From assembly GCA_017651345.1 (NCBI GenBank), contig JAGCDD010000072.1:1-37325 (forward strand): DNA of 37,325 nt, given 5' to 3'. Shown piece by piece: positions 1,926 through 35,137 of the stretch. The position numbers and the translations under genes are program-made. The notes below the pieces were generated by a model. The model ran no database searches and was not told the DNA's origin. It saw only the letters and a program-made list of their open reading frames with translations. Every line of letters starts with the position of its first letter. Within the stretch, counting starts at the first letter, position 1. The DNA comes from Bacteroidales bacterium. Lineage in GTDB: Bacteria; Bacteroidota; Bacteroidia; Bacteroidales; UBA3824.

Positions 1926-4295
<2,370 letters not shown>

Positions 4296-10203: not shown

Positions 10204-10207
10204 AGAG

Positions 10208-11443: not shown

Positions 11444-11479
11444 TGTCTATGGTATGAGTTTTCAATAAATTTCAGGGTG

Positions 11480-11510
11480 CAAAGGTATAAAAGATAGATA
11501 AAACCGCAAA
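11480..11510 (-). promoter_or_regulatory. Bacteroidetes-type promoter of clpX-obgE
   Basis: On the minus strand TTTG (plus-strand 11507-11510) and TACCTTTG (plus-strand 11480-11487) are separated by exactly 19 bases, a full match to TTTG-N19-TAnnTTTG. It is 37 bases upstream of the clpX ATG. The rest of this intergenic stretch up to 11720 shows no gene and only weak inverted repeats, so I could not place a terminator for the large operon that ends at 11721. Confidence 0.8.
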
Positions 11511-11720
11511 ATTAATTTTTATAGCAACCTTTAGATTTTGCGTTTGGTCATCATTTGACAGAATGGTTCTTGCCGCACACATCATTAAAATAAAGCAATG
11601 CCCAGTTCGGCGATAGATGATGTATCACAGACAGCACTGTATAGCAACTTGTTAATATACTAAATCGGACTTGATTAATGAAAAATCGTGGTAGGTGTAG
11701 AATGTGATGTGGTGTTTTCA

Positions 11721-12104
11721 TTATTGTACAACAAATTTTTCTGTTACCGATGATGTTATTATATTTTTCCCAGGCAGACGATATGATACCTTGAAGGGGT
11801 AGTCACCGGGGGTGTAGGGTTTGGGTTCGTAGTAATTGTAAAAATCTTGATCGTGTCCAGATATGGTTTGTTTATTTAACATTTTTCTACCCACGATATC
11901 TTTTATGGCGCGTACATCCTGATCGCACTGATAAACAACATAATATCGAGCTATGCCCTCACCTGGCAATCCTGTAGGAGTGCCCGAATTGATTTCATTG
12001 TCGTTAAGCCTGTCGTGTTGAGCAAAATAGGCATTGAAAACAATCATAGCGTTATTTGGAGGGAAATTGTAATACCGTGTGTCTTTGTTCGAAAGCTGCG
12101 ATGC
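11721..12104 (-). pseudogene. C-terminal remnant of the giant exported protein, cut off by an in-frame TAA
   Basis: This stretch continues the frame of the gene at 12105-16169 without a shift. After the TAA at 12105-12107 come 127 sense codons and then a second TAA. The translation still aligns with the end of the paralogous lipoprotein at 25926-27461: Y-N-F-P-P-N-N-A matches V-K-Y-P-P-I-N-A shortly after the stop, and the endings Y-R-L-P-G-K-N-I-I-T and F-R-L-P-G-K-N-I-I-T are nearly identical. An ATG at 12047 could restart translation but lies in the middle of the homologous region, so I do not regard this as an independent gene. It is either a recent nonsense mutation, a read-through site or a sequencing error. 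Confidence 0.8.
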
Positions 12105-15100
12105 TTAGTACTCTTTGTAGGCATGAATAAAGATACTGTTTTTATACCATTCTGTTTGATCGAGAAGAGGTGTCATCACAATCATGTTATCTTTAGAGAA
12201 ACCCGTTTTACTGTCTAAATATTGGTATTCAAAGCCATCTGGAAATTCATCGGTAATGAGATTTCGTGTCATATTTTTTATTAAAGCATCACTACCAGAT
12301 ACAACCACATTGCCACTAAGTTTTAGGTATGCCACTTTTTCTTTAAAAGTATTAAACTTGCTGGTTCTAAAGCAGTACGAAGTAAGTTCTTTGGTTTCGA
12401 GGATGTCGAGTTCGCCTTCGGCTTCTATCTTGCGTTGGGTGATTTCATCAGATACCGAGGTTTCGGAGCGCGACACGTTGGCATCTATTTTAGCCTGCTC
12501 TTTGGGTATATTGAGCACCGACAAGCGGTATATCTCGTTTTTGCCAAACTGCAATCCACTAAGGTTGAAATCTATTTCGTATTTTGCCCCGTATTGCGAT
12601 ATTGTCTTTGAGGAGAATGTGATGTCTTTACCCTTACCGTCGAGGGTCTCTACCCTCACCCTCTGCATATAGCCTTCGGGTACGTCGGTGGTAAAGAGGT
12701 AAGAGTAATTTTCTTTTACCAATATGTATCCATCGTTCCACTCTTTGGGATAAAAATTGTATTGGCGCAGTTGCGGATATGCGCACAAGATATGCTCTGG
12801 CAATATGTGGTCGGGACGTTTTCCAGATGTAAAACGAACGGTTTTCTCCTCGGCATAGTCGCTGCCATCTTCGGTGTAAGTTACCCATCGTCCTGAACTC
12901 TTTTTCTGGAAAAGCACACGTGCGGATACAGTGTATGGTGTGGTGCTTTCAAATGCCTCTTCGGGGTCGAATGTGTACGAAAGACCATCGTCGCTCCTTA
13001 CTGATTTGCCCTCTACCTTGGTGCCGTCTTCTTTTTTCACGGTAAAATGGTCTAAAATAATACGGTAAGTGCCTTTCTCACCTCGGTTGTCTTCGATTGT
13101 CATCTCGGTTTCGGATGCCACGTTGAGCAGCAATTGCGGCGCGGCAAACACGCTTACATCTTTGTCGCCATTGCCAGGCGTTATCTGTGCTATCATATCC
13201 TCGCCAAGCAGCGGACCGCCTTTTACAGGCTCGCATTTGGTGCCACATTCAAAGTCGATATGGCACTTGCCTTTGATTAAGCCGCCGAGCACGCTGTAAC
13301 TACCTGTGATTATGCCTGTAAAATAAAACGGATTTGGTCCCATGCCTTTTAAGCATGTTCCGGCGTGCAGGGCTAATATGTCGAAGTTGCGTCTTTTGCC
13401 AAAAAGTTTTGCTTGTAGACCAACAGCTGCATCAAGATATGCCCAAATTTGCGCCTCGGCATACCATCCGTTGATACCAAGCGTACCTTCGCGACCTTTG
13501 CAGTAGGCGTTTTTGCCATAGTCGGCAAGCATAAACTCGCCGCCCGCACCAATGTCTAACTTAGCGTAAAACGGACCCACGGACGGTTTTAGATGAGTAT
13601 TGAAACCAAGACCGAAAGCTATCCCCTTGCCTGAGGATGGCATATCGTTGTGAATACGTCGCAAAAAATCGTCTTTTTGGGCGGCAGATAAGTCGCTGAG
13701 CACCTTGTCGGGCGGTGGCGGCAATTCGGGAAGACCGTTGCCAAGCATAAAGTAAGAGTCTAACTTAACAAAATCGAGCACTTTGACACCGCAACGATTG
13801 TCGGGTGTACCCATGTGCAGATACCAGTCGGAATCGCCGAACCTTGCCTTTGCCCACACGAGCATATCATTTGCTCCTGTACCTTTGATTATACCAGCAA
13901 TATTTAGGTAGGTTTTGAGATCCATATTGAATATCTTGCTGGTGTTGTCGTATTTCATCAGCACCGAAGCAGAGAGTATTCCGTCGCTACCGCCGTTGTC
14001 TTTTGGTTTTTCTTCCGACGGACGGTATTCTTGTTTTAGGTTGCCTACACCGCCAGCCTGTTCTTGTTGTTTTACACTCTCCATCATGCCTTCGCCAAGG
14101 CCACCCCATTTTTTGGGGTCGCGCATAAATGCCACGTCGCCCTTAAACTGCACATAGTTGAGCCCCCAATTATCGTTGAACTGCACTTCAAAGGTGGTTT
14201 TTGCATTGAGCGTGTTTTTTTGCGCCACATAAAAATTAGCATGGGCAAGAAATCCGAAACCCACTTTTTCATTGGGCACGTAGCAGATGCCGGAGATTGC
14301 CTTGCCAAAGGAATAGTCTTTTAAGGTTTGATCCATGTGGCGGTAAAGTCCACCGCCCAATCCCGAAACGCTTATACACGGCGGAATTGTAAAAATAGGA
14401 TCTGCCTCTAACAGCACGTCGGCAAGGAAATATCGGTTGCCATCTTTTTTGCCAAACACACCAACGGCATTGAGTCCATATTTGTTGAGCAGTTTAACGT
14501 CAAGGTCGCCACGGAAACCGTTGCCGTAGATTTCATCACCTTTCTTAATCTCTACCGAGCCGTCGATTGATAGTGTGTTTTCGGCTTTGTAATGCACCTC
14601 CGCCCGCGACAGTGCCACTTTTTTTATCTTGAATCTATCAAAGTCGCCTTCAAGTTTTAGACTGGCGGCACCGTTGAGCATTTCGTTTAGTTTTAGTTTT
14701 ATGGTAAATGCCAATGCCTCGTTTTCAAAGCCTATATCGTCGATTTCTAATTGAAAGCCACCTATCGAGGGCATCGACAGTTTTGAAACCGCCAACGACA
14801 TTACACCTGGCTTAAAATATGGTTTGCGGTTGCTAATCTCCATGCCTTCAAATTTAATGTCGGGCAAGGTTACTTTCATTTTTTCTAATTCGGTATTAAT
14901 CGAGAGAGTGCCGTCGGCGTGTATCAGCGGATAAAAACCCTCCTTGCCAACCGAAAGGTTGATATACGAAGATGGTTGCAATGTCAGGTTGGCGCCAAAC
15001 ACAGGAAAATCCAATGTGTCTTTGAGATTACAAGTAAAGTCAAACTGTTTAGAAATATCGTTGTAGCGTGCCACAAAATCCATTTTAGAGTTTTTGCCAA

Positions 15101-16169
15101 AAGGTGGAATATTGGCTATGCCGTAGAAACTTATGCTGTCGATTTTGTTTTTGGTGAGCGATAGGTTGGCGGCATCCGCCATTATCTGCCATTTTGTTGT
15201 GTCGATTTTTTGATGCTGAATGTTTTCTACAAAGGCAGTTAGCGTTATTCCATACTTGTCGATAATCAAACTTTGGCAGCCCACCTGTGTGCGAGAGTTG
15301 CCATTTTTGCAGAAACTTTCGGGCAGTGCCACCGCAATGGTTTTTGCCGAAAAACCCTCCCACAACTTTATCTCGGCGTTAGAATTGAAATATTTGTCGG
15401 GGAATCTTACCGATGCTGGCGTGCGGGTTTCGCTCTTGTCGAGCACAAGGTTGTTCATCGTGAAGACAAAGTCATCGAGCCCTTTGATACCAAAATTGAT
15501 ATCAGCATTGATTTCAAAGGTCAGGTCTTCAAACGATTCAAAAAATGTCTGTATATTAAACGACGGTGATTTGTCGGTGGGTTTAAAATTGCTGTCGTAT
15601 GCGATAATCTTGTCGGATGTAATGGCAACAGTAATATCGGCAAAAAACTGGGTGATGCCGTCGCAGTCAAATTCGCAGTACGAACCTTTGTTGAATGTAA
15701 GCCGGATGTTTTTCCCTATCGACACCGACCTCTGGGCAAGGAGTTCTATCTTAGTGGGCATCGCCGTGCCGCATTGTCCGCTGAGCGAGCAAGTGCCGCC
15801 AAATGCTATTGTGTCGTTTCCTATACCGATGGCTGTGGTGGCAGTAATCTTGGTAATGCCGTCGTCGCCGTGCTGTATATCCGAAAGCACCAAAGTATAT
15901 CTGCCCTCGCCAAGGCCGCACGGAAGCGGAAGTTCGCCGTTTGACAACACCTCTTGCAGGTTTTTGATATAGTTGCCAAGTTTTTTAACCTTGTTTGCCA
16001 TAGCAATAGCCGCCCTCACTCGCTTGGCGTTGGCGGTGTCGGACATTAGTTCTATGGCATCTTGCTCAATATTTTGGCTTTGCGCTTTTTGTGGCATCAT
16101 CCATAACGCGCATAACATTATCAGCAGTATCGCCGAATGTTTACAACTATAAGTTCTCATTGTTTTCAT
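12105..16169 (-). CDS. Giant exported protein of unknown function, prematurely terminated
   Basis: This 1354-aa protein begins with a Sec signal peptide that ends near A-Q-S-Q around residue 32. No known enzyme motif was recognised. Residues about 50-1000 are dominated by alternating beta-strand patterns, with a cysteine-rich stretch near residues 80-180. A charged Pro/Gly-rich linker lies near 700. Residues from about 1003 onward form an Ig-like plus C-terminal module that is homologous to the lipoprotein at 25926; for example Y-P-Q-L-R-Q-Y-N-F-Y-P-K-E-W matches Y-P-I-D-R-Q-L-N-Y-M-P-K-E-Y. The module is cut by TAA at codon 1355, and its continuation is still readable downstream. The start overlaps the barrel gene by 23 bases; an in-frame ATG three codons later is an alternative. 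It is the last gene of a five-gene exported-protein operon. Confidence 0.8.
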   Translation of the reverse strand: MKTMRTYSCKHSAILLIMLCALWMMPQKAQSQNIEQDAIELMSDTANAKRVRAAIAMANKVKKLGNYIKNLQEVLSNGELPLPCGLGEGRYTLVLSDIQHGDDGITKITATTAIGIGNDTIAFGGTCSLSGQCGTAMPTKIELLAQRSVSIGKNIRLTFNKGSYCEFDCDGITQFFADITVAITSDKIIAYDSNFKPTDKSPSFNIQTFFESFEDLTFEINADINFGIKGLDDFVFTMNNLVLDKSETRTPASVRFPDKYFNSNAEIKLWEGFSAKTIAVALPESFCKNGNSRTQVGCQSLIIDKYGITLTAFVENIQHQKIDTTKWQIMADAANLSLTKNKIDSISFYGIANIPPFGKNSKMDFVARYNDISKQFDFTCNLKDTLDFPVFGANLTLQPSSYINLSVGKEGFYPLIHADGTLSINTELEKMKVTLPDIKFEGMEISNRKPYFKPGVMSLAVSKLSMPSIGGFQLEIDDIGFENEALAFTIKLKLNEMLNGAASLKLEGDFDRFKIKKVALSRAEVHYKAENTLSIDGSVEIKKGDEIYGNGFRGDLDVKLLNKYGLNAVGVFGKKDGNRYFLADVLLEADPIFTIPPCISVSGLGGGLYRHMDQTLKDYSFGKAISGICYVPNEKVGFGFLAHANFYVAQKNTLNAKTTFEVQFNDNWGLNYVQFKGDVAFMRDPKKWGGLGEGMMESVKQQEQAGGVGNLKQEYRPSEEKPKDNGGSDGILSASVLMKYDNTSKIFNMDLKTYLNIAGIIKGTGANDMLVWAKARFGDSDWYLHMGTPDNRCGVKVLDFVKLDSYFMLGNGLPELPPPPDKVLSDLSAAQKDDFLRRIHNDMPSSGKGIAFGLGFNTHLKPSVGPFYAKLDIGAGGEFMLADYGKNAYCKGREGTLGINGWYAEAQIWAYLDAAVGLQAKLFGKRRNFDILALHAGTCLKGMGPNPFYFTGIITGSYSVLGGLIKGKCHIDFECGTKCEPVKGGPLLGEDMIAQITPGNGDKDVSVFAAPQLLLNVASETEMTIEDNRGEKGTYRIILDHFTVKKEDGTKVEGKSVRSDDGLSYTFDPEEAFESTTPYTVSARVLFQKKSSGRWVTYTEDGSDYAEEKTVRFTSGKRPDHILPEHILCAYPQLRQYNFYPKEWNDGYILVKENYSYLFTTDVPEGYMQRVRVETLDGKGKDITFSSKTISQYGAKYEIDFNLSGLQFGKNEIYRLSVLNIPKEQAKIDANVSRSETSVSDEITQRKIEAEGELDILETKELTSYCFRTSKFNTFKEKVAYLKLSGNVVVSGSDALIKNMTRNLITDEFPDGFEYQYLDSKTGFSKDNMIVMTPLLDQTEWYKNSIFIHAYKEY

Positions 16170-17895
16170 TGGTGTCTTTTCGTTTTATAGCAAATGTATA
16201 GGAATAGTTGAAATTTACGGTGCAGCGGTTTTTGAGTGTTGCCGCTACCGAGTTGTGTATATATGCCGCAGATAGCGATATATTATGCTTTTCAAAAAAG
16301 GTATACGCTGCCGAAAACCTCGCATTAACTATATACGACGATATAGTATCGTACATGGTATTTGCCAATGTACCGTCGAGCGAGAGGGTTAACGGATTTT
16401 TAAACCTTTGCGACACTCCCGCGCTCACTGTGGCTATATCCACTTTTTGCGCCGAGGTGTTGGTGCGGTTGAATCCGCCCCTAAGCGATAGTGTAGCACC
16501 GATATTGGTGAGCGACAAAGAGTATCCAGCGTTGGTGTTGAGTATTTTGGCTTTGGCGGAGAGTGTGTCGTAGCGTTGCTCTTCGTTGGTGGTCTGGTAG
16601 GTAAAGTCGGCTGTAATGGATTGCGACACCTGCTCCGACCCCCCAAGCGTGTACGAGAGCGACAGCATCGACGTGCTGCTTAGTTGCGAATAGTTGTTGG
16701 TGTCGAGGTCTTCAAACTGCGATGTCTGTATCAATTGACGGTAGTTGTCGCGGATGTTGATATAACTCTGGTCGTTGTTAAACGAAGCAGACATGTTTAG
16801 TTTTTGCGTAACATTGCCCGAAACATTAATAGAATACACCATATTTTTGTTGGTGGATAGTTTCTGATGCTTTACATTGTCGCGGCTAAAACCCGCATCG
16901 CCTGCCACTGCTATCCTGTCGGCTATCATTGTGCTGAATGTGGCTGTTATCTGCCTGAGGTCTTCGTTGAAATAGTAGCCTCCGAGTGTTTCGTAGTTGG
17001 GCGGCATATATTTGTAAGCCATACCTACCTGACTGTTGCCCAACGTATAATCCAAAGCAAAATTGTAGGCGTGAAACACAGATGTGTAGTTGAGCGACCC
17101 CCCTTGTTTTAATGGCTCGGTTTTCAGGCTGTCGGTTGAGTACTGACTCTTGATAACGCTGAATGCGTATTCGCCGCGGATATTGAGGTTGGGTATCAAT
17201 GTGGTGCCGGCTTCTATCGACGAGGCTACGTTTTCTTTGGCAGGGATGTACAATTCTGGATGGCTGTCGAACGATACTGTGTTGCTCTTGTCGCCTATGA
17301 ATATCACATTGCCCGCAAGTGTTACCTTATCAAAGTTGTGCCCTATTTTAAAACCTCCGCCCATACGTTTGTAGCCTATATCAAACTTGGTGGCAGCCGA
17401 ATCAGGGGCGCACGCCTTGCGCAAACGTCCGTAGAATGCAGCAATGTCCCAAACTTCGTTTTGATACGCCGCGCCTATGCCAAGAAAATCGTGCCCCGAG
17501 AGGGTGTATTGCGAAAATGTCAGGCTGTTGTAGCCAAGATAGAGCGTGTATCCTTTGTATGTGGGACTTAGCGAAAACCTATTAAACGGCAAAGCGGCAT
17601 TTTTGGTAAATGTATTGTCGGTGAATGCAAAACTTATCGGCACGCTCACTACGCCATAAACCGTGGTGGTGAGGTTGCCATTGAGGTAATAATAAAAACT
17701 ATTGTCGGCAAGGGTGGAATCGGTGATAAGTTCGTGAGTGGTGCTGGCAGAAAGCGAACCCGAGGCTTGTATGGGCTTGGCGTTCTTTATGGATTCAATA
17801 TCTTGGGCAGAGACAGTGAGAGCCGTTGATAATAGAATTATCAATGGGAATAACCAGTAGGCGGATATATTACGATTCGATATAAATCTATGCAT
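16147..17895 (-). CDS. Predicted outer-membrane beta-barrel protein
   Basis: This 582-aa protein has a signal peptide (cleavage near V-S-A-Q, residue 30). The rest alternates polar and aromatic/hydrophobic residues in strand-length blocks separated by Asn/Asp/Gly turns, as in Bacteroidetes outer-membrane barrels. The sequence approaches its end with a strand-like segment V-N-F-N-Y-S-Y-T-F-A-I followed by a short charged tail. No TonB-box plug domain was seen, so it is unlikely to be a SusC-type receptor, and it is much longer than PorP/SprF proteins. It sits between the secreted 369-aa protein and the giant protein and overlaps the latter by 23 bases. An export channel or surface anchor for the neighbouring proteins is a reasonable inference, not shown by sequence. 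Confidence 0.65.
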   Translation of the reverse strand: MHRFISNRNISAYWLFPLIILLSTALTVSAQDIESIKNAKPIQASGSLSASTTHELITDSTLADNSFYYYLNGNLTTTVYGVVSVPISFAFTDNTFTKNAALPFNRFSLSPTYKGYTLYLGYNSLTFSQYTLSGHDFLGIGAAYQNEVWDIAAFYGRLRKACAPDSAATKFDIGYKRMGGGFKIGHNFDKVTLAGNVIFIGDKSNTVSFDSHPELYIPAKENVASSIEAGTTLIPNLNIRGEYAFSVIKSQYSTDSLKTEPLKQGGSLNYTSVFHAYNFALDYTLGNSQVGMAYKYMPPNYETLGGYYFNEDLRQITATFSTMIADRIAVAGDAGFSRDNVKHQKLSTNKNMVYSINVSGNVTQKLNMSASFNNDQSYINIRDNYRQLIQTSQFEDLDTNNYSQLSSTSMLSLSYTLGGSEQVSQSITADFTYQTTNEEQRYDTLSAKAKILNTNAGYSLSLTNIGATLSLRGGFNRTNTSAQKVDIATVSAGVSQRFKNPLTLSLDGTLANTMYDTISSYIVNARFSAAYTFFEKHNISLSAAYIHNSVAATLKNRCTVNFNYSYTFAIKRKDTNENNENL

Positions 17896-17974
17896 CGTAT
17901 ATGATGTAATTATATAGTGTTCTACATTGTTTCTTGTTTGTAGGTAAGAATTGCTGTATATTTCTGAGCAAATT

Positions 17975-19084
17975 TTAGAATCTTATATTCGGATTAACTT
18001 CCAATTTGTCAATATTTTCTTCCATCCATTTGGCAACTTCTTCGCATTTGGGAAATAGCGAGATATCCCCATTGTTTATATATCTGTTTCCTTCAAAAGG
18101 TATTTCAATAGTAAAATAATGCCCCAATAGTAATAAATCCAAATTGCTCAACTTATAAAATGCACCATCCACTTCCTCTGAAACAAATTTTCCTTGTTTA
18201 TATGCTGAGATAAAACCACGACTACGACCTTCTATTCTTAACCCTTGTATCATTGCAACTTTACTCTTTGGAGAATTCAAATATGCTAATTCTTCATAAG
18301 CAAGAAACTTTTTAGATAAATTATCCTTAATTAATTCGTCCTCATAATATTTATTACCTAACCGAGCCAAATGAACCTTTAAACGACGGTTATTATTATG
18401 TGTTTCTAAATATTTCTCAATATATGGAACAGCCTCGTAAATATATAGCCAAGCACATAATTCCGATAGTATTTCTATATCGCAAGAAGGAGTTTTTAAA
18501 CTTTCTGAAAACTCAATCATTGATCTATGAATTAAACTATCCCTTGCATAAGATAAACTAACCTTAGATGTATCAATATGTTCAAAACGTATTAAATGGT
18601 CATCTGTATAATATGTTCTGTTGAAATATATTTCCTTAGTTGTTAAAACTTTAAGTTCTTTTTCAGAGTAAGGCTTATTGGATATTATATTTAGAATTTT
18701 AGCCTTGATTTTATTGTCTACATCGTCAGTCTTTATAAGCAAACTTCCTGAAAAGCCACCACTAAGTCGATATGTGTCCAAAAAAAGATGAAACGCTTTA
18801 TTTCTTATGCTTTTATCAATATGTGTCATATATACCCTTAGTAATTCTGAATAATCATGAAAATGATTATAGATAGCCGAATCAGTGTCGTATTTTGACA
18901 AATAGTCAAAACTTCTGCGTAATGCCTTTGCAGAAAAACCTTTTAGAGAATCTTCATTTTCTGATTGATATATTTTAATTTTCTGATTTAAAATGTCATA
19001 GATAAAAGTTTTTAATGTACCATCTTCTTGCCCTAAGGCGGTAAGTGGTGATACCAATAGTAAGATAAATAATATAGTCCTCAT
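17975..19084 (-). CDS. Secreted 369-aa protein of unknown function in an AT-rich patch
   Basis: The protein starts with a clear Sec signal peptide (M-R-T-I-L-F-I-L-L-L-V, cleavage near L-G-Q, residue 19). The mature part looks largely helical, with segments reminiscent of HEAT/ARM-type repeats, but I do not recognise the family. It begins only 8 bases after the stop of the two-peptidase gene and shares the low G+C content of that gene's 3' end, unlike the rest of the operon. A short, secreted, compositionally matching gene directly behind a probable effector domain is the layout expected of an immunity or chaperone partner. That role is inference. The 79-base gap before the barrel gene holds no recognisable promoter. 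Confidence 0.7.
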   Translation of the reverse strand: MRTILFILLLVSPLTALGQEDGTLKTFIYDILNQKIKIYQSENEDSLKGFSAKALRRSFDYLSKYDTDSAIYNHFHDYSELLRVYMTHIDKSIRNKAFHLFLDTYRLSGGFSGSLLIKTDDVDNKIKAKILNIISNKPYSEKELKVLTTKEIYFNRTYYTDDHLIRFEHIDTSKVSLSYARDSLIHRSMIEFSESLKTPSCDIEILSELCAWLYIYEAVPYIEKYLETHNNNRRLKVHLARLGNKYYEDELIKDNLSKKFLAYEELAYLNSPKSKVAMIQGLRIEGRSRGFISAYKQGKFVSEEVDGAFYKLSNLDLLLLGHYFTIEIPFEGNRYINNGDISLFPKCEEVAKWMEENIDKLEVNPNIRF

Positions 19085-19092
19085 GTCTTAAT

Positions 19093-22000
19093 TCATTTTA
19101 TTTTAGTATTTATTTTTCGCCATTGGAAATACCAAAAACGAGTCATATTTTTAGCACCGCTATAATCCATAAAATTATTGGTAATGTGTCCTTTCCCATC
19201 GCTTTTGCTTGGATCAGGTTTATATATATAATATGGCTTATCAAAAATATGAGTCAACCCAAAAGCATGTCCAACTTCATGAATACCAATTTGTACATCC
19301 AATGCATTTTTGGAAAGATAAACATCATGGAAAAATGATGTGTCAGTTGCACTTGGAGAATTACAAAAACCACTAAAACTATAAATAGCAGTAGGTGTTG
19401 TAACATAAAAAGAATCGATAGGAACCAAAAATAAGTAGTAATCGTCACCTTTATTAGTTCTGGTAATATGCAATGAATCTAATACAGTTTTTGGAAGATC
19501 TACAAACGAATTATTACTTTTATTCATACGATTAAGAAAATCGTTTTTAAACTGATAATGCATTATTTTTATATCAAAATTCACAAATGATTGATTATAT
19601 GAATTTTCATTAAACATAATAGACCCTTTATCAAAAAAATTTTCAGTTGGAAATTTTAAAATAGTATCACTAAGATAATAAATATGCAATTTTTTACTGA
19701 AATTGATATTTTGACATATTACACTTAATATTCCTATTGTATCATTGGCATTATCAATAGCATAGATCCATTCATAATCAGGTAAGATTTTACTTTTAAT
19801 TTCAATTGTCAAATTCGATGATTTTGTTTTTAAATTGGAATTAGATAAAGAATTTGTTTTATTAAGCGTCATGGACAGATCTGGCTTAGACGAAACAAAT
19901 TTGATTACAGCACTCGAATCATTCATAAACTCGTCTGCAACATTAACTGTCATTTTTAAAGAAACCAATGAGTTAGGCTGTATCGATAAGATTGAGGCAT
20001 ATCTAGTATTATCTAAAATTTTGTATTTATACTTATTATAATCAGAGACTAATCTAATTCTGCTTGCAGTTTCTAATACTGAACAAGCATTATCAAATCC
20101 AAATTCTCCTTTATAACTTGGCAAAGTATCAAATACTACTTCCGACTTTTTATAAATTATCAAGTCAACACTTGCTATCTCTTTGTTATTTACATTATTA
20201 ACTGTTATTTTGTTTGATGATTCTTTTGAGAAATCAATTGACACAGTAGAGGTTGGAGTATTGGTAGAATCGACACTCCAAATACCTGTTATCAAAGAAT
20301 CTCCCCTAAACAATTGCAAATCAAGGTTGCGCTTTCGTTGCACCACATACATCTCAGTTCCTGATTTTGCCTGTATATTTTGTATATTTGTTGTGTCCTT
20401 GATTTTGAAGACATACGGCAAGTTCTGTATGTCGATTTTCAACGAACCTAACAACAAGGTGTCTTTCCAATAAATTTTAAGTGTATCTTTTACTTCTTTA
20501 TCTATTGGCAATGAATACGATGACGTGTCTTGTGCGGTAGTGGAGTTGAACTGCCATGTGCATTTTATTGGTTTTTCACCTCTTACAAAAACGAGATGGA
20601 TTAAAGAATCTTTTTCCGTTGGCAACAACAAACTGTCGTTGCGGCTCAAATATTTATCCAATTCTTCTATTTTGATTTTATAATCATCATATTGATTGAT
20701 ACTTATAAAATATTTTGCAAGTAGTGAATCGTGTTGTAATATATATAAGGTATCCTTTTGTGGTAAGGAAATGTCTAATTTGAAGACATCTGATTTTTCT
20801 ACAACAGTGTTTCGATATTTCCAATCACAATTATAAACAGAATCTCCTTTAAGTAATTGTATTTCATAACTTTTACCTAAGTAAGACTCTATTTCAATAG
20901 ATTCATCTGATTTATACTTTGTATTAGTATCAGCGATTTTCAAGTAAAAGACTGTATCTGCCAATAAATCTTCCGCATCCTCTTCCTCAAACCTCCACTT
21001 GAATATCCTGTTAGGCGGATTCTGTAACTTGTCCCATTGGAAGTGCCAAAGCGTCAGCCCTTCGTTGTAGTCCATCAGGTTGTCGGTGCGTCCGCTGACC
21101 TGAGATTCGGGGAACGGGTGCTGTAAACTTGCTATTCCGTGGGCGAGTTCGTGGGCTATTGTGCGGTTGCCCGCACCGTAGTAGATGAAACCGAAGTTGT
21201 AACCGAGGGGATTGTAGCCTGCCACACCGTTGGTCTCCGCTCCGTCGGGGATGAAGAACAGGTAGTTGATGTCGGGCTGGATGCGAGAATCGTATGCCTG
21301 CAATACTCGTTTCTGGTCATCGTTGTAGCCTGAGAAACGGTTCTTGTCGCCGTGGGTGAAGGGGAAGAGATTTTTTATAGTCAGGGTGTCGGTGGAGATT
21401 TCAAAGGAATCTACGGCTTGTCTGAAAATATCGTTGAGTACTTTTTGTAATTGATTGATTTTCGGTAACTTTGCCTCGTTTACGCTAATTAATACCACCT
21501 TGTACGTCTTTTTCTGATAGGTATTCAAAAACAACTTTCCTATCTTCTTATCGCCTCGATAAGCATAAATATAGTTCGTATCGGCTTGGCTTACGCCGGT
21601 GAAGGTGAGTATGCGGTCTTTTATTGGGTATGTTACTCCGTATTTATCTTTAAATACTACCGAATCTTTTTCACGGTAGGTGTCGAATTCTACAATAACT
21701 TTGTCGTTCTTTCCACACTCCACACTTTTATAGCGGAAATCATAACTTCCTACCTGCGGATAATATTCTGATGATGAAAAAATTCCGTGGTCGCCGCTGC
21801 CGATGTGGTCGAAGGCGTAGGTTTGGGCGTCGTATTTTGAAAAGTTGATTTGCCATTGGGCGAGGGAGTCGGATTTGCGGTGGTACTCTTTTAATAATAC
21901 GGAGTTGCCGCCAGTGGCGTTGAACTCGGTTTTGCCCATCACCTGGCCTTTTTTGGTGAGGACGAGTTCTTCACCGTTTTTGCCTTGTATCAGGGTGTTT

Positions 22001-23619
22001 TCTTTGAGGTTGGTGGCGGAAATCTCGGTGGTTTTCTCTTCGGTTTTGCCGTTGTTGTTTACTGATACTGCCACCACCTTGCCCGATTCGTTGATATAAA
22101 GGTAGGTGTAGGGCTTGTCGATTTTTACAGTGTCTTTGATAGAAAAATCTGTTAGCACGGTGGCTGCATCAAAAAATGCTTGCTCTACTTCTTTGCGTAT
22201 GGTTTCGGGTTTGATATATAGGGTGCTATCCGTCACGCTGTGGAATATGGTTTTCAGCACAATGTTGTCGGTGTTGATTTGAGTTTTTGAAAACTCGCAT
22301 CGTATTTTCGCTCCGCCCCAGCAGTCCATAATCATAAAGAATTGTCCGCTAAGATAACCATTTTTTTCTTCCGAAAAAATTATTTCGTACCTTGTGTCGC
22401 CGTTTTTCGATTCCACTATCTCGCCAGGGGCGAAGGAGTGTTTTAATTCAAGGTTGGTTATCTCCCTGTCTTCAAATACTTTGCCGCACTCGTATTCGGG
22501 TACGGGGATGGGTTCGAGGTAGGTATCTAAGTATGGTGTGTAGTCTGACATCAGTGTCGGGTCGCCGTAACATTCTGCTTTTACGCGGACTTTAAGGTGG
22601 TAGCCTGTTTGGGGCATATTGCGGACAAACTCGGCGTAATCGCACGCTACGGGGTCGATGGTTCTGCCGGTCTGCGGGTCGTAGTATTCAAAGTAGTATT
22701 TTGTGTGGGCGGGGTCCATATCCCATGTCCAAGTGATTTTTAGTCCTCGGTTGGTGAATCTAAGTCCTGTTACGGGTTCGGGCTTGCGCTTGTAGGTGAA
22801 GGTAAAGATTTCGGACTGTCCTTGGTTGGCGAATTTCTGCTGGTTGTGCGGGTCTTCAACGGTTATGCGCCAGGCGTATTCCATACCGGGTTTCATATTT
22901 ACGGTGGCGGGGTGGAACGATATCTGCGATGTGGTATATGTTTGTGAATATATTGGTCTTACGGTGCTGACAACGGTCTGCACTGGTATGCCTGGCACTG
23001 CGCACTCCCATAGTTCAAACTTGTAGTTAAATGCTCCCACGGTTTTGGGTATCCACGTGAACACTATTGGCGACTGCTGCTGGGCGGGCGGTATCAATGT
23101 TTTGTTTTTGGGTAACGAGAGCACCGGCGGCTTGCCCATGCGCGCGTTGAACATGGTGAAGGCGGTGTTGCTGATTACGCGGTTTTCGTGGTAGTGGATT
23201 ACTTTTACGTTCATGCGGTAAAATCCTTCGGGAAGTTGTCCGTCTTGGAGGTATTTGGCGGCGGTGATGCCGTGGAAATCAAGGTTTTGGATGTCGAAAT
23301 ATCTTGCGAGGTCGGCACCTGTTAGCACTATGGTTTGTCCGCCGTTAATATATAAAGGTGCGGGGTTGAACGATGGTTTTGTAGTTACTTTAACATTCTG
23401 ACATTCAAGCGAGAAGGATAGTTTGTAGGGGCAGTTGGCGTCTAAGAGGTCTTGTCCTGTAAGGGTAATGATGAGTTTGGGCGTGGCATAGTCGCCAAGA
23501 AAGAGGCTGTATGGAGGGGTATATTGCACGGTGGCACGGATGGGGTAGTTGCGCTGGGCGGAGGATGTCGCAGTGCAGAATGTCAATAGGGTTAGTAATA
23601 TTAGTAGTTTCTGTTTCAT
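19093..23619 (-). CDS. Large secreted protein with Fn3-like, Ig-like and two HExxH metallopeptidase domains
   Basis: This 1508-aa protein has a signal peptide (cleavage near S-S-A-Q, residue 21). The N-terminus, with the motif P-P-Y-S-L-F-L-G-D-Y, resembles what I remember of the TANFOR-type domain of Bacteroidetes surface proteins. A fibronectin-III-like domain covers about residues 280-372. Zinc-peptidase site 1 is His823-Glu824-x-x-His827, with a further His834 and a Met-turn-like M-D-Y at 849. Three tandem Ig-like modules follow at about 902-976, 988-1065 and 1084-1158. Zinc-peptidase site 2 is a canonical metzincin HExxHxxGxxH at 1447-1457 with M-D-Y at 1484. Both sites end in a similar aromatic F-Q-W segment, so the catalytic unit appears duplicated. 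There is no T9SS C-terminal domain. The coding sequence turns AT-rich 3' of about 20980. Confidence 0.8.
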   Translation of the reverse strand: MKQKLLILLTLLTFCTATSSAQRNYPIRATVQYTPPYSLFLGDYATPKLIITLTGQDLLDANCPYKLSFSLECQNVKVTTKPSFNPAPLYINGGQTIVLTGADLARYFDIQNLDFHGITAAKYLQDGQLPEGFYRMNVKVIHYHENRVISNTAFTMFNARMGKPPVLSLPKNKTLIPPAQQQSPIVFTWIPKTVGAFNYKFELWECAVPGIPVQTVVSTVRPIYSQTYTTSQISFHPATVNMKPGMEYAWRITVEDPHNQQKFANQGQSEIFTFTYKRKPEPVTGLRFTNRGLKITWTWDMDPAHTKYYFEYYDPQTGRTIDPVACDYAEFVRNMPQTGYHLKVRVKAECYGDPTLMSDYTPYLDTYLEPIPVPEYECGKVFEDREITNLELKHSFAPGEIVESKNGDTRYEIIFSEEKNGYLSGQFFMIMDCWGGAKIRCEFSKTQINTDNIVLKTIFHSVTDSTLYIKPETIRKEVEQAFFDAATVLTDFSIKDTVKIDKPYTYLYINESGKVVAVSVNNNGKTEEKTTEISATNLKENTLIQGKNGEELVLTKKGQVMGKTEFNATGGNSVLLKEYHRKSDSLAQWQINFSKYDAQTYAFDHIGSGDHGIFSSSEYYPQVGSYDFRYKSVECGKNDKVIVEFDTYREKDSVVFKDKYGVTYPIKDRILTFTGVSQADTNYIYAYRGDKKIGKLFLNTYQKKTYKVVLISVNEAKLPKINQLQKVLNDIFRQAVDSFEISTDTLTIKNLFPFTHGDKNRFSGYNDDQKRVLQAYDSRIQPDINYLFFIPDGAETNGVAGYNPLGYNFGFIYYGAGNRTIAHELAHGIASLQHPFPESQVSGRTDNLMDYNEGLTLWHFQWDKLQNPPNRIFKWRFEEEDAEDLLADTVFYLKIADTNTKYKSDESIEIESYLGKSYEIQLLKGDSVYNCDWKYRNTVVEKSDVFKLDISLPQKDTLYILQHDSLLAKYFISINQYDDYKIKIEELDKYLSRNDSLLLPTEKDSLIHLVFVRGEKPIKCTWQFNSTTAQDTSSYSLPIDKEVKDTLKIYWKDTLLLGSLKIDIQNLPYVFKIKDTTNIQNIQAKSGTEMYVVQRKRNLDLQLFRGDSLITGIWSVDSTNTPTSTVSIDFSKESSNKITVNNVNNKEIASVDLIIYKKSEVVFDTLPSYKGEFGFDNACSVLETASRIRLVSDYNKYKYKILDNTRYASILSIQPNSLVSLKMTVNVADEFMNDSSAVIKFVSSKPDLSMTLNKTNSLSNSNLKTKSSNLTIEIKSKILPDYEWIYAIDNANDTIGILSVICQNINFSKKLHIYYLSDTILKFPTENFFDKGSIMFNENSYNQSFVNFDIKIMHYQFKNDFLNRMNKSNNSFVDLPKTVLDSLHITRTNKGDDYYLFLVPIDSFYVTTPTAIYSFSGFCNSPSATDTSFFHDVYLSKNALDVQIGIHEVGHAFGLTHIFDKPYYIYKPDPSKSDGKGHITNNFMDYSGAKNMTRFWYFQWRKINTKIK
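20146..20916 (-). repeat. Three tandem Ig-like protein modules between the two peptidase sites
   Basis: Within the 1508-aa protein, residues about 902-976, 988-1065 and 1084-1158 share the pattern aliphatic strand, then L-x-x-G-D/E-x, then a conserved Trp six to nine residues later, then a strand with I-x-I near the end. Examples are L-L-K-G-D-S...D-W-K, F-V-R-G-E-K...T-W-Q and L-F-R-G-D-S...I-W-S. The repeats are diverged at DNA level. They probably space the two catalytic domains. Confidence 0.55.
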
Positions 23620-23625
23620 ACCTTG

Positions 23626-25629
23626 TTAAAAAGAAATTTTACCTTCATCGCTTAATGATGATTCTGTGCCATCATCAAATTGATGCCTGATGCAATATTT
23701 GTATGTTTTGCCCGCCGACACGTTGGTGTCGGTGTATTCGTTGCCGTGCACTATGGCGTAGGTGCTTATATCATTAGTGTCTACCGCTCGGAAAACAACG
23801 GTTGACACCACCTTCTTGCGCAATTGGTCGGTGTTCCACTTTAGTTTTATTCCATTGGGTGTTACGGTGGTGGTAAATACTATTTTTTCGGATTTTGCTG
23901 GGATATCTGCCGCCATAATATTCGACAGCGAAGACCACAGTCCGCCATTATCCATAGCCTTGAGTGCGTAATAGTATGTCTCGCCCTCCTCTATATTGTT
24001 GTCGCTGTATTCGGTGTCGCGTGGTTGCAATATAGCCAAGGTGTCGAATTTGCTATTGAGATTAGTTTTGCGAAATAAAACAACGTTTTTTACATCGCCC
24101 GAAACCGATTTGTGCCACGAAACTATGTTTTTTTTGCGGGCTATCTCCACATTGCTGATTCTGGGCGGCGACGGCGGAATGGTGTCGTATCGTGCCACAG
24201 CCGCAGGGGGCGACATTGCGCTCTGATTGTCGCGTCCGTCCACTGCCTTGAGCCGGTAATATATATACTCGGTGCTGGTGTTTAATGTAATGGTGTCGGT
24301 GTAGGTGGTATCTTTAATCATATAAGGGCACGCCATCACAAACTCCACATCGGGCAAATTGGCGCGGAAAAGGCGGTAACCTATCACATCGGGGTCGGTG
24401 CTGCGATGCCAATACACCGTAACGCGTCCAAGACTGTCGCAAAAGCCCTCGGGCGGAGCGGGTGCGGCAGGAGGGACACTGTCGATAAGCATCGCATACG
24501 ATGGAAAGGGGTTGATTACTTCGCTTACAGAATTGTATGCAGAAATAAAATAGTAGTTGTCGTTGAGAGGTTTGGAGTCGGTAAAACTGCGCGATTGCGG
24601 ACTGATATTGCCCGACAGCAGTTGTTTGGTGCCGCCTGACGATTTGGAGCGGTATATCTTATATCCCTCAATTGCGGATTCTTGGTTGGCATCGTAAGTC
24701 CAGTTTATCACCACAGAATTGTTGTTAACAGTTTCGGCGTAGGTGAGTTCAGGCACCGAGGTTATTTCAGGCTTGCCTATGCATTTCGACACATCCGACA
24801 TTGGACCACTTTCTCCAAAACTATCAAAGCCGTAGGCACGGTAGTAATATGCCTTGCCGTCGGTTTCGAGTGTGTCGATTATCCTCATTTCAAACGAACC
24901 GTAGGTGGCAGAGATGGGTTGTTCGGATATTTTTTCAAAATGCTTGCCATCTTCGCTCTTTTCGATATAGTATGCTATATAATAAGGTGTGGCTTGCGTA
25001 TCCCACGAAATATGTGCCGCGCGGTTGCGAACCACAATTGTGGGGGCTGGCGGAGGGTATAGCGGGCGGTAGGCTCGTATCGACGACATCACCACTGCTG
25101 TGTCGGTGTAGAGTGTGTCGGCGGTTGCCAACCTCACAGAGTAGATGTAGGTGCTGCTTTTGTCCACATCGGTGTCGTTGTAATATAGTCCGGCAAGGCG
25201 GGCGGTGGTGGTGTCCATATCAGCGCAGTAGAGGGCAAAGCCAAACCGCTGTTCGTTGTCGTTGTGTTTTTTATATGCTGTAATAGGATTAAAATCGGTG
25301 TAAGTCTCGCGCTCTCCAAAAATGCACTCTGCCGCCACTGCGGTATAGTTATTATCAGCAAAAGGTTCCCATTCTGATATATCGGCAATTTTGATATTTT
25401 TAGAAAATTGTTTTTCTGCCCATACCGAGTCGCCCGATTCAGCCACTAAATACTTTTCAAAAATGTATCCGCATTGTTTAGCCTCGTCCCATACGGGATA
25501 GGAAACCGGAGCCCAACGGAGTTCTATACGGTCGCGCCCAGGCTTGGCCATCAGCATGATATTCTGCTGCCGCTGTGCCATAGCGGATGTGCATATTATT
25601 AAAAAAAGTAACAATGAGGGTAGTTTCAT
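23626..25629 (-). CDS. Secreted protein with tandem fibronectin type III domains
   Basis: This 667-aa protein has a signal peptide (cleavage near A-M-A-Q). I chose ATG at 25629; an upstream TTG at 25638 would only add three residues. After an atypical first ~190 residues come about five Fn3-like repeats of ~90 residues, starting near 199, 290, 390, 490 and 585. They have the typical W-x-x-x-x-D-x-x-I-x-G-Y-x-I/L-F/Y-R core and end in Y-Y/Y-C strands with D-N-x-S/G-x-S/x-S-x-L-S. The first gene of the minus-strand operon, it ends 6 bases before the two-peptidase gene. The likely role is a surface or periplasmic binding scaffold; no enzyme domain or T9SS tail was seen. Confidence 0.82.
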   Translation of the reverse strand: MKLPSLLLFLIICTSAMAQRQQNIMLMAKPGRDRIELRWAPVSYPVWDEAKQCGYIFEKYLVAESGDSVWAEKQFSKNIKIADISEWEPFADNNYTAVAAECIFGERETYTDFNPITAYKKHNDNEQRFGFALYCADMDTTTARLAGLYYNDTDVDKSSTYIYSVRLATADTLYTDTAVVMSSIRAYRPLYPPPAPTIVVRNRAAHISWDTQATPYYIAYYIEKSEDGKHFEKISEQPISATYGSFEMRIIDTLETDGKAYYYRAYGFDSFGESGPMSDVSKCIGKPEITSVPELTYAETVNNNSVVINWTYDANQESAIEGYKIYRSKSSGGTKQLLSGNISPQSRSFTDSKPLNDNYYFISAYNSVSEVINPFPSYAMLIDSVPPAAPAPPEGFCDSLGRVTVYWHRSTDPDVIGYRLFRANLPDVEFVMACPYMIKDTTYTDTITLNTSTEYIYYRLKAVDGRDNQSAMSPPAAVARYDTIPPSPPRISNVEIARKKNIVSWHKSVSGDVKNVVLFRKTNLNSKFDTLAILQPRDTEYSDNNIEEGETYYYALKAMDNGGLWSSLSNIMAADIPAKSEKIVFTTTVTPNGIKLKWNTDQLRKKVVSTVVFRAVDTNDISTYAIVHGNEYTDTNVSAGKTYKYCIRHQFDDGTESSLSDEGKISF

Positions 25630-25663
25630 TAGTAGCAAGTGTTTTTTTTCGGCGGCTAAGTAA

Positions 25664-25671
25664 CAAAGATA
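25664..25671 (-). promoter_or_regulatory. Possible -7 element for the minus-strand operon
   Basis: Minus-strand TATCTTTG is an exact TAnnTTTG element 34 bases upstream of the Fn3 gene ATG. A correctly spaced TTTG is missing; the nearest is only 11 bases further upstream. Only the -7 half is therefore supported. Confidence 0.45.
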
Positions 25672-25847
25672 AAAGCACTCTGCAAAATATTTTTAACACT
25701 TTTTTAAAATTATATAATACATTGATAATCTTTTATACTATCAATAATAATCGAAAACAAGCAACGCACTGACACATATACATATACTACAAAATAGTAT
25801 AAATATTTACAACAAAACAAAAATACAAAAAAATAGATAAGAAAAAA

Positions 25848-25878
25848 TTTGCGATATTAGATATAATGTCTACATTTG
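25848..25878 (+). promoter_or_regulatory. Bacteroidetes-type promoter of the plus-strand surface-protein operon
   Basis: TTTG at 25848-25851 and TACATTTG at 25871-25878 are separated by exactly 19 bases, a full match to the Bacteroidetes consensus. It lies 47 bases before the lipoprotein ATG. The rest of the divergent region from 25639 is very AT-rich and shows no gene. Confidence 0.8.
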
Positions 25879-25925
25879 AGGCGAAAAAAAACTTAAAGAA
25901 AGGAACAAGAAAATAATTAAACTAT

Positions 25926-27461
25926 ATGGAAAGACTTTTTCTACTACCAATAGCCGCAGCAATGTCGGCAATGATATTTTTGCCATCGTGCAATAAAGAT
26001 GACAACGAAGTAAAAATTTCTCATAAAGACTCCGCAAACGTTATTGAAGTGCTTACTAAAAGCCAATATGCCGTTGGAGGCAACTTTTCTCCAAGCAATG
26101 GCGCAAAAGATATATATGTGGGAACTGACTTTTCTATCAAGCCGGGCGTGGCTTTGAATACTCCGTTTGAGGTAAAGTTAGCCGACCAAACCGTCACCTA
26201 CCGCTACGACCTTAAAGCTTGCACCATTACCGATGCGAGCGGTGCCGACTTTGCCACAGGTTTCAATTACAGCGAGCAGGACACTTTGATAACTATCAAT
26301 AGCAAAATCCTGAACGGAAACACTGAATACACACTATCGTCCACAATAGCTCTGATGCAGCAAATCAACGGCGAATGGCAGCCTGTGGTATACAACGGAG
26401 ATGCCAAGGAGTATGTGTCAACATCATTGTTTACCACCTGCCAAGCCGCCGACACACTCCGCCCAGCCGACATTCTCTTTTCATATCCTATCGACCGCCA
26501 GTTGAACTATATGCCCAAAGAGTATCAAGAAGGCTACATAATGCTCTCGTACAAATATCCCGAACTGTTCAACGGAGCATCGGCAAATGATATGAAGGTG
26601 ATAATCAAAAATATCACCGACGACACCAAAGCCGAACAATCTACCCCATTTACTGTAAAAGAGAGCCACGAAGTGGAAGGCGAAGCAGTTGAGTTGGGCT
26701 ACTCGCTCAAAGACATTATGTTCGACCCAAACCAAATTTATAGCCTTGCCTTCTATTGCGGTGAAAAACAAGTACATCAGATATATTTTAGAACAAGTTT
26801 TTATGAAACGCTGAAAAGTAAGTTGGCGGCTCATGAGGGTAATTTTGATGGGGAATTACACTATGATGGACTATCAGATAATTATTTGTGTGCATCTTTT
26901 AAAGTAGAAGAATATTTTGATAAATTTGAATGTCAAACCTTAGACAATTTTATCTATGAGAAATATGGCGAATTGCCACGGTCGGAAACTTTAAATACAT
27001 GTCTCATTCCAATCGAATTCGACTTTGATAATTGCGATTGGTATCAAACTTCAATATTTAAATATATATACGACAAAATTCCTACACCCACTAATGACCA
27101 AAGAGGTAATGTCAAATATCCACCAATAAATGCATGTGAATTATTTCAAGTACATATCACCAAAGTATTCCTTTCTGATGAAGAAATTCAAACAAAAATA
27201 ATTAATAGTTGGCCGAATATATATAGATTAAGAATATATATGTCATACTATTTTATTCAAGATGGCAAGAACAGTCAGTCACATATTTTTAACAACGGAG
27301 CGGAATCAGAAACAGAGGAACAAATTATGAAGATAAATGTAAAAGATTGGTTTTTACTGGCAAATCCCATAGGTACTTATTCCTATGATCTATCTTTTCG
27401 TCTACCAGGAAAGAATATCATTACATATCAAGAACGGCATATGTTTACTTATAATAAGTAG
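25926..27461 (+). CDS. Predicted surface lipoprotein, paralogue of the giant protein's C-terminal module
   Basis: This 511-aa protein has a lipobox L-P-S-C with lipidated Cys22. It is followed by N-K-D-D, which fits the K-(D/E)2 form of the Bacteroidetes lipoprotein export signal and predicts display on the cell surface. Residues about 60-170 look like an Ig-like (Big_5-type) domain. The remainder aligns with the C-terminal module of the protein at 12105-16169 and with its remnant after the TAA, including Y-F-R-T-S-F, D-W-Y-Q-T-S-I-F and F-R-L-P-G-K-N-I-I-T. The G+C content drops from about nucleotide 26780 to the end of the gene. It is first in a three-gene plus-strand unit, 3 bases before the adhesin gene. 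The function is unknown; anchoring or binding the same partner as the giant protein is inferred. Confidence 0.8.
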   Translation: MERLFLLPIAAAMSAMIFLPSCNKDDNEVKISHKDSANVIEVLTKSQYAVGGNFSPSNGAKDIYVGTDFSIKPGVALNTPFEVKLADQTVTYRYDLKACTITDASGADFATGFNYSEQDTLITINSKILNGNTEYTLSSTIALMQQINGEWQPVVYNGDAKEYVSTSLFTTCQAADTLRPADILFSYPIDRQLNYMPKEYQEGYIMLSYKYPELFNGASANDMKVIIKNITDDTKAEQSTPFTVKESHEVEGEAVELGYSLKDIMFDPNQIYSLAFYCGEKQVHQIYFRTSFYETLKSKLAAHEGNFDGELHYDGLSDNYLCASFKVEEYFDKFECQTLDNFIYEKYGELPRSETLNTCLIPIEFDFDNCDWYQTSIFKYIYDKIPTPTNDQRGNVKYPPINACELFQVHITKVFLSDEEIQTKIINSWPNIYRLRIYMSYYFIQDGKNSQSHIFNNGAESETEEQIMKINVKDWFLLANPIGTYSYDLSFRLPGKNIITYQERHMFTYNK

Positions 27462-27464
27462 ATT

Positions 27465-30400
27465 ATGAAAAAGATATATGTTTTATTGCTTTCTATCTTT
27501 GTTTTTGCTAATATTGTATTTGCGCAAGACAAAAATGTAGACCACCAAAAAATAGGTGTATTTGCCTTATCCTTAGAAATAGATCAATATTCTCACACCG
27601 ATTATCGAGACTCACAAATTGATGTATATGTATCATATCGTAATAAATTTTCAAAAACATTTATTTCTTTAGGGTGGCAAAAGTATACGCTAAAACGCAA
27701 AAGCGATTATTATGGAAGATATGCTATTGTTCCATTTCAACAAGGAGGAGTTTCATCACCTGAAATTATATATTTTGAGGTGGAGTTGGATGGTAACACT
27801 ATAAAAACCAAAGAATTCCCATTAACTGATTTACCTTCAACAAAAGAAGGATATTACACTGAAGTTGAGATTAATGATGATTTAACATTATGTGTTAATG
27901 CTCCTTATTACTATTACATAAATAAATTTACAGATTTAAACTTTTGTCAAAACGATAATTTACCGTTGGATGTTGAGTGTCCGGGAAATCAATGGCCCAA
28001 GGTCGCATTAGAAGTAGCTTACAAAGATCCAAATAAGAGTATTGTTGATGCAGATTATGTATTTATGGATTCTATATCATATTCACATCCAATTAGTTAT
28101 TCCCATTTTGCGGATTTTATTGATAACAAATTAAGCAAAAGTATATTTTCAACTGAGAATAATGGAGGCAAATTTCTAATGCGCTTAAAATTGGGGAAGT
28201 TCATTTCTGATTCTGTTGAAGTCCCACCCTACTATCGTCAAGTAGTATTCTCGAAAGATAATATCTCTCTTGATGATAATAAGATAAGTATTTCCAATAA
28301 TATCAATAACTACCAAATTACAATAACCAATACAATAACAAATAATTATTATCCACGTGAAGATGACGACAAGACACAAAACAAAATAGTCATCGAAGAT
28401 TTAACTTATGGTTTATATTCTATACGAATAGAAGATACGAAAGACCCAGGATCCAAGTGTTATGTTGAATATTATGCCAATATTATGGAGGCTAAAAATA
28501 ACTATCTTCAACCTAATAAAGATAACGAAAAAAATGTAGCCGATTTTTGGAGTGCATCACATACAACACGTAATGATGCTATTATACTGCATAGTTATAG
28601 AACTCACACAGAAAGTGAAAAATATCAACCGACAAATTTAGTAGATAATGATATTCGTCTTGTACCTGAAGATCTTTATGATAAAAATAATGCAATTGTT
28701 TGCAGAATTGAAGATAAGAATGGCGCAAAAAAGTGTGATGTTGAGGCTTCAGAAACTCAATATTATATTAAAAATTGTCATAGTGGGGATAATCAAACTA
28801 TAACTATCTCTTATCCCGAAGGCTCTAACTATCTCCCCCAAACCATCCATTACACTCTCAACAACTATTTCAAAAACATATCTGCCACACCTGAACTTAT
28901 ACAGCCTGAATGTGCCGACGGAATAGGCACACTCAAACTTTCAGGAATTCAGGGTGGTTTAAATAATGGTTACTACTATACATTAAATAGAGGCAACACA
29001 ATTATTGAAGAAAGCACAATTTCAGGTAATAGCGTTTCAATCAATGTGCAAAATGGTGACAGGGTTAAGATATACGACAATAAAATGAATGAAAAAGATT
29101 TTCCTTACACAGAAGACCGTGCGTGGCCGGATAAAAATGAAAATGGTTATGTTGTAAAAGGTCTGTCTGCAATACAACCCTCATTTTCTTATCCTCGAGC
29201 CAATATAACATGTTTTGGTGGCTCAACTGAACAAGTCGTGGAAATAAGTAACTATTCCAAGAATATAAATTATTCGTGGACAGTAAAAGTAAACAAATCT
29301 GACGGAAATACAACATCAGGTATTGCCAATGGGTCTACCATTGTTATCAACAATCTTCCTGCCTACGAACATTCTATTACTTGGCATATAACCAAAGATA
29401 ATAAAACCTGTTGGAATGATAATAGTACATCTTTCACAATCACCCAACACGATCCAATAGAATTTGAAGCCAAACCAGTTTCACTTACTTGCAAAGACAG
29501 CGATGATGGCGAAATAAATATATCTAATGTCAAAAATACACAGGGAAATAATATAGCGTATTATTATCCTGAATCAGGGAAAAAGGAAGATGCATCACCT
29601 ATTTATGGTAATCAAAATAAACCAAACCCATTAGGAGCAGGAAAATACATTGTCTATATTGTAGACAAAATTAAAGTGAATGAAGAAGAAAATGAAAAGA
29701 CATGTGAATCCGCCCCCCAAGAGGTTACAATCGGTACACAAACACCACAAATGAATTTAACAACCACCGCCGCTTCGTGCGATGCGGCAGAGAATGGGAA
29801 GGCTGTGTTTACTAAAAAAGAAGGTATTCGTTTTGAACCTGATGTATTTGAATGGAAAAAAGATAAACAACAAATCCACGGTATCACTTTCTCTAATTCA
29901 TCATTAGGTGTAGGTAATTATTCAATAACATTCAGAGGCAACAATGGGGTGTGTACAATGTCATCCACATTCACTATTGTATCAAATACATACTCATTTT
30001 CAGCCTCCACCTTCAACGCCTCATGTGCCGCTGCCCCGAACGGCAGCGCAGAGATTTTAGCACCTATTATAACTTCAAAAGGTAATAAACAAGGAGAGTT
30101 TAATCCAACATGTTACTCTTGGACACTGGTCAATAAATCAAATACAAATATTACCGAACGAACCACCTCAGTCAATACCATAAGCGGTCTGTTGCCTGGC
30201 ATATATAAAGTAGAGATTAATCATGATGAAAATTGCACCTCATCCACCGAAGTGGTAATCGGCACTAACACATACAACTTCCAAGGCACTCAATACCACG
30301 ACCTTTCGTGCGTAGATGCATCAAACGGCTATATAACTGCACAAATCAACAAATCTGGTAATGGCGACTTTAATATAAAGGGTTACGAGTGGCACGTTAA

Positions 30401-32807: not shown

Positions 32808-32822
32808 ATACATTACCCTGTT

Positions 32823-35126: not shown

Positions 35127-35137
35127 TAAGGAAACAC

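Follow-up and report, generated by a model that had tools for sequence, protein, structure and literature searches.

The 23.6-kb island and its genes

The window, that is the whole stretch of 37,325 nucleotides from a Bacteroidales genome analysed here, carries a 23.6-kb insertion with eight main genes (11523..35137), located between clpX and a TPR gene. In three relatives, G005, G006 and G013, the flanks adjoin, and the sequence upstream of clpX, up to window 11522 or slightly less, abuts the TPR gene (window 35138). The island is absent at this place in the three genomes, and the giant gene that it carries is accessory. At the same clpX/TPR boundary, G003 harbours another insertion of about 3.3 kb (contig C35, ~9880-13220), in which a 65-base stretch is a partial repeat of the TPR gene's end, and the boundary is a possible insertion hotspot. 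Mobile-element ends were considered for the window island and rejected: the family hits for the eight main genes included neither an integrase nor a transposase, and repeats of at least 24 bases were not found in 11444-35137.

By eye, all eight main genes have signal-like N-termini. Five are on the minus strand. The giant gene (12105..16169) adjoins a gene for a 582-aa exported protein (16147..17895), an outer-membrane barrel by inspection only, and this adjacency was found in all four orthologous loci. Other neighbours of the giant gene vary among these loci; soon after it, a TANFOR-like gene is present in L086 and L087 and another gene in L085 and L088. The remaining minus-strand genes encode a 369-aa exported protein located after the TANFOR gene (17975..19084), immunity-like by position only, a TANFOR-domain protein (19093..23619) and a fibronectin type III protein (23626..25638). 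The plus strand encodes a lipoprotein-like protein (25926..27461) in which residues 280-511 are homologous to the C-terminal module of the giant, a 1780-aa protein carrying a T9SS type A sorting domain and, just below the Pfam cut-off, a SprB-like repeat (27465..32807), and a PARCEL/DUF285 repeat surface protein (32823..35126).

The protein at 19093-23619 resembles the TANFOR polymorphic toxins. Its match to TIGR02542 (E 6.6e-7) is below the curated cut-off, and it displayed a weak C-terminal match to reprolysin-like metallopeptidases and, by eye, two HExxH-like stretches. Jana, Salomon and Bosis (2020, PMC7073777) describe TANFOR proteins as polymorphic toxins and report an over-representation of SprB, T9SS sorting and Fn3 domains around their genes. 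The window island likewise combines TANFOR-like, Fn3 and T9SS-sorting/SprB-like proteins, but the giant gave no match to the TANFOR domain or to a recognised toxin domain, and a giant partner of this kind is absent from the neighbourhood description in the available part of that paper. TIGR02542 was detected in 5 of the 18 genomes of the genus, which are exactly the five with a giant of the window's own paralogue type, type A (Fisher p 1.2e-4). This co-occurrence is given no weight here, as the five may be one clade and the TIGR02542 model missed a protein of G013, encoded next to that genome's own giant, that is 42% identical to the window TANFOR protein.

A premature stop with an open, homologous continuation

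The giant gene starts at 16169 on the minus strand and encodes 1354 aa with a signal-peptide-like N-terminus (by eye) before an in-frame TAA at 12105..12107, codon 1355. As originally predicted, the frame stays open past this TAA for 127 codons (12104-11724) up to the natural stop, a TAA at 11721..11723 that is followed by a TGA in frame. The DNA homology to L086 and L087 ends at 11713, just past this natural stop. When the bases of the 127-codon stretch were shuffled 20,000 times, the continuation frame was without a stop in only 6 cases, and the open continuation is therefore not due to chance.

The claimed homology of the giant to the lipoprotein on both sides of the stop was confirmed by BLASTP and hhalign. 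Alone, the 127-aa continuation matched the lipoprotein with 28% identity over 108 aa (BLASTP E 5e-8, for a single comparison). When 14 relatives, none of them interrupted at the stop position, were combined into a profile, it aligned to either side of that position with residues 280-511 of the lipoprotein (hhalign probability 99.0, E-value 3.9e-18). The motifs that had been reported as shared are similar and not identical, the lipoprotein having WYQTSIF, YPPINA and FRLPGKNIIT. Closer comparisons than the lipoprotein are offered by four orthologues and by an intact full-length paralogue in the same genome, G000:C197 (41%).

The search for relatives covered 59 genomes including the window's own, and 15 of them had a match. 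Besides the window's own genome, the genus was represented by 17 genomes, and four of these had a type A orthologue, in each case as a single open frame: G005 (1482 codons, 85% identity to the window giant), G016 (1480 codons, 94%), G006 (1479 codons, 78%) and G003 (1483 codons, 91%). All four have a sense codon at the position of the window stop, differing from its TAA in 1-3 bases, and in all four the homology runs through to the natural end. The 18 genus genomes contain 15 full-length copies of the giant, namely 13 intact ones, the window copy and the copy in G009:C2; the intact copies measured are 1450-1520 aa long. Excluded from this count were copies at a contig end or with a part missing (G006:C33, C90 and C206; G015:C39 and C83; G010:C51 and C56; G001:C76), an isolated 170-codon remnant (G003:C24:420533) and the shorter relatives of the lipoprotein type. 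The copy in G009:C2 (245-4626) is a second broken giant, split near residue 880 into two frames that overlap, one of 867 codons and one of 617. In G010, C51 and C56 hold tail-module pieces at contig ends, and in C51 a 494-codon module-bearing gene follows directly after such a piece, perhaps as tandem tip-bearing genes.

An open and homologous continuation is also what would be expected if the TAA were read through or recoded to yield one protein of full family length. TAA is, however, an ordinary terminator in this DNA, the commonest among the other listed window genes, where it ends 10 of 20, and the four orthologues all carry a sense codon in its place. The use of TAA by these ten genes excludes recoding in our judgement, and next to no weight is given to read-through or recoding. 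The original prediction had offered a recent change, read-through or a sequencing error; the third of these and the first are retained, because of the sense codons in four of four orthologues and their homology to the natural end. Most likely, judged from the sequences, the window TAA is a recent nonsense mutation.

The original prediction had further suggested a phase-variation-like off state of a surface protein, and surface structures of Bacteroidales are indeed often phase-variable. Against such reversible switching, no suitable repeat or tract lies near the stop. The only repeats in 11440-12700 are a direct pair and an imperfect inverted pair, each of 12 bases, and the lack of longer ones over 11444-35137 was given above. 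Tandem Repeats Finder detected four short arrays in 11444-16300, the nearest to the stop at 14686, and none with a score of at least 30 in the 2.5 kb that adjoin the stop on the gene side. Homopolymers within 20 bases of the stop were at most 3 bases long. A near-identical donor was not found either: as a candidate, a silent-donor archive in this genome was discarded when a 901-base probe matched just the gene itself and an 82-base stretch of a paralogue at 71%, in a genome that is incomplete. Phase variation is thus considered very improbable.

A mosaic hypervariable cassette at the tip

The stop had been described as lying inside a conserved module. The module is homologous across the family, but the stretch that bears the stop is the most variable part of the protein among the five type A sequences, and in the closest pairs it is enclosed by sharp mosaic borders. 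With the borders of the window-G016 pair, this hypervariable cassette spans codons ~1277-1447 (11829..12341, minus strand), about 170 codons, with the premature stop about 80 codons inside. Past it lies a conserved C-terminal end with the motif YTPGDYPFKVSYRLPGK (11724..11828, minus strand).

The borders were obtained from a two-break scan of the alignment. For window-G016 they fell at columns 1276 and 1448, with nucleotide identities of 97.9, 59.5 and 92.4% to the left, inside and to the right, and for G003-G005 at columns 1279 and 1438 (94.8, 57.6 and 93.3%). The first border of both pairs is 10-13 columns past the start of an FRTSK motif. In a pair of another paralogue type, type C, between the same-genome paralogue C197 and G005:C262, the jump occurred at column 1290, 20 columns past the FRTSK start, with identities of 98.9, 62.3 and 71.6% and without a clear return at the end. 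A sharp jump is visible only where the left part matches closely enough, which applied to five pairs. Three of these five, from two paralogue types, dropped from 95-99% to 58-62% identity just past the FRTSK motif; the remaining two, G003:C35-G013:C95 and G016:C9-G006:C90 (a partial copy), were near-identical through the tip.

Among full-length copies, the scan covered 10 type A, 6 type C and 10 type B pairs. In six of the ten type A pairs the first border was 10-21 columns past the FRTSK start and the second at 1438-1452, and the other four, all involving G006, were without such borders. Strong support was confined to two type A pairs, with log-likelihood gains of 140.9 for window-G016 and 119.4 for G003-G005, the others gaining 9-40. 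A break at the FRTSK motif was found in one of the six type C pairs, C197-G005:C262, and in none of the ten type B pairs; the type B tips compared are not switched. The C197-G005:C262 pair also diverges elsewhere, around codons 435-555 and 690-720, so that the mosaic change is strongest at the tip and not unique to it.

Synonymous divergence between the window and G016 followed the same course. The dS was 0.10-0.20 over codons 1-900, about 0.50 over codons 900-1080 and 0.12 over codons 1080-1265, and the proportion of synonymous differences was 0.70-0.76 over codons 1265-1450 and 0.33 over the final 33 codons. That the tips differ so much at synonymous sites suggests an exchange of old alleles over targeted mutagenesis by a diversity-generating retroelement. 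Homology is retained among the type A tips, with an identity of about 47-72% per 60 residues.

Exchange is also suggested at the scale of the gene block. In the clpX region, which served as background in place of the gene at 2709-4295 because that gene gave no match in G003 and G016 at the threshold applied, the window was 95.9, 95.5, 95.8 and 86.8% identical to G005, G003, G006 and G016, respectively. For the stretch of giant gene and partner the corresponding values were 80.8, 89.6, 75.7 and 92.5%. The disagreement between the two orders suggests recombination or transfer of one of the two regions. Elsewhere, the type B giants of G016 (C9) and G006 (C90) are 91-100% identical in nucleotides per 15-codon block over their shared part, tip included, whereas the type A proteins of these genomes are just 52-92% identical per 60 residues. 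Such near-identity despite divergent type A proteins suggests recent transfer.

Origin of the stop and biology of the giant family

The whole may be depicted as follows: A recent, lineage-private nonsense mutation probably truncated an accessory giant exported protein that a 23.6-kb island encodes. Either the mutation occurred in place or the stop arrived with an imported tip. At columns where the other four type A sequences agree, and with one genome per species so that a private change is based on one assembly, the window had 5 private changes in 65 columns past the stop compared with 12 in 252 for the others pooled (each 1-4 of 61-64; Fisher p 0.36). In the variable part past the stop, the window count was the highest, 5 of 37 against a pooled 8 of 136, and leans towards some decay, a difference that is not significant (p 0.15). 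The last 33 codons differ from G016 by 8 synonymous and 0 non-synonymous changes. The lack of a significant excess of private changes is as expected of a young event.

The same lack of significant decay is compatible with an error of assembly or consensus, or with a strain chimera, in which case the gene of the living cell would be full-length. The window is contig C37 of a draft metagenome-assembled genome in 483 contigs, with a completeness of 90.42% and a contamination of 6.08%, and a strain-mixed consensus could yield a stop; the stop also lies in the most strain-variable stretch, where reads from several strains are presumably hardest to merge. On the other hand, the other main genes of the contig are long uninterrupted frames, both island flanks match adjoining genes in relatives, which indicates that the contig is sound at large scale, and a lone in-frame change without frameshift is atypical of a chimeric join. 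An error is regarded as the less probable explanation by a wide distance, but one to be reckoned with.

A nonsense mutation in the living lineage agrees with what is familiar from nonsense pseudogenes in bacterial accessory islands, where a single stop, a homologous continuation, intact orthologues and an accessory locus likewise occur together, and the broken copy in G009:C2 fits this picture as another one in the genus. What sets the window stop apart from the usual nonsense pseudogenes is its position within a mosaic hypervariable cassette. The shortened protein might remain functional, if the tip were dispensable or its loss selected, for example as an escape from a phage or from immune recognition of the tip, the tail being newly non-coding. 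Variable tips are typical recognition targets, and the body is strongly constrained, with dN/dS of 0.06-0.19 between the window and G016 in the five 180-300-codon blocks up to codon 1265. This low dN/dS is inherited and carries little information on the time since the stop. The cut falls in mid-cassette, away from a domain border, and the conserved end is kept in 14 of 14 rows of the module alignment. A functional short protein is accordingly thought improbable, and the private nonsense mutation remains the preferred explanation.

The intact giant comprises a long body, two probable Ig-like domains, an apparently exchangeable hypervariable tip of about 170 codons and the conserved C-terminal end. 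It may be exported together with the partner encoded at 16147-17895, possibly via the T9SS. SprA of this system had matches in all 18 genomes of the genus, over the cut-off in 17, and models of the T9SS sorting domain gave no match to 14 module copies and two window pieces. The tip would be a surface-exposed recognition surface for a ligand, prey or host, diversified by between-strain recombination through its conserved flanks. In the window allele, translation would end about 80 codons into the tip, the tip could not form and the conserved end would be lost, making this allele a putative natural loss of function. Since the gene is accessory and the intact paralogue C197 remains, the loss is probably tolerated.

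The family cannot be named, as the tip and body matched no usable profile, with scattered weak family hits, and the structure models were too poor to compare. The search for a C-terminal toxin in the giant likewise returned scattered weak family hits only, the model of the tip being below usable confidence. Polymorphic toxins with exchangeable tips, such as CdiA and Rhs, have in common with the giants a conserved body, a junction motif and a variable C-terminal part. The giants differ in that their tips are homologous within a paralogue type and end in a conserved segment, and in having no known toxin fold or assigned immunity gene. No description of the giant family was found in the accessible parts of a limited set of open-licence papers on TANFOR, T9SS polymorphic toxins and hypervariable Bacteroidetes surface proteins. 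Tentatively, and with more doubt than confidence, we propose that the giants of TANFOR/T9SS islands form a class of surface proteins not described before, in which a constant body and a conserved end enclose an exchangeable recognition tip and the swap point is fixed just past FRTSK in different paralogue types. The choice of the neighbour, host glycan or partner toxin to be engaged would then lie with the tip, and the window allele would be a natural tip-off mutant.

The giant gene was found in the Bacteroidales metagenome-assembled records RGIG1597 (goat abomasum), RGIG10234 (yak rumen), RGIG9950 (yak reticulum) and Tb.RUG.368, and the source organism looks like an uncultured ruminant-gut commensal. 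The stop itself, an ordinary private breakage or an error, points to a giant exported family in ruminant-gut Bacteroidales, and the hypervariable tip is the more interesting lead. Some sister genomes have near-identical bodies, yet tips as different as those of distant relatives. A near-identical body with a divergent tip usually marks an interface under strong diversity selection. The borders of the cassette define about 170 residues as binding candidates, and a natural tipless allele would reveal how the strain behaves without its tip.
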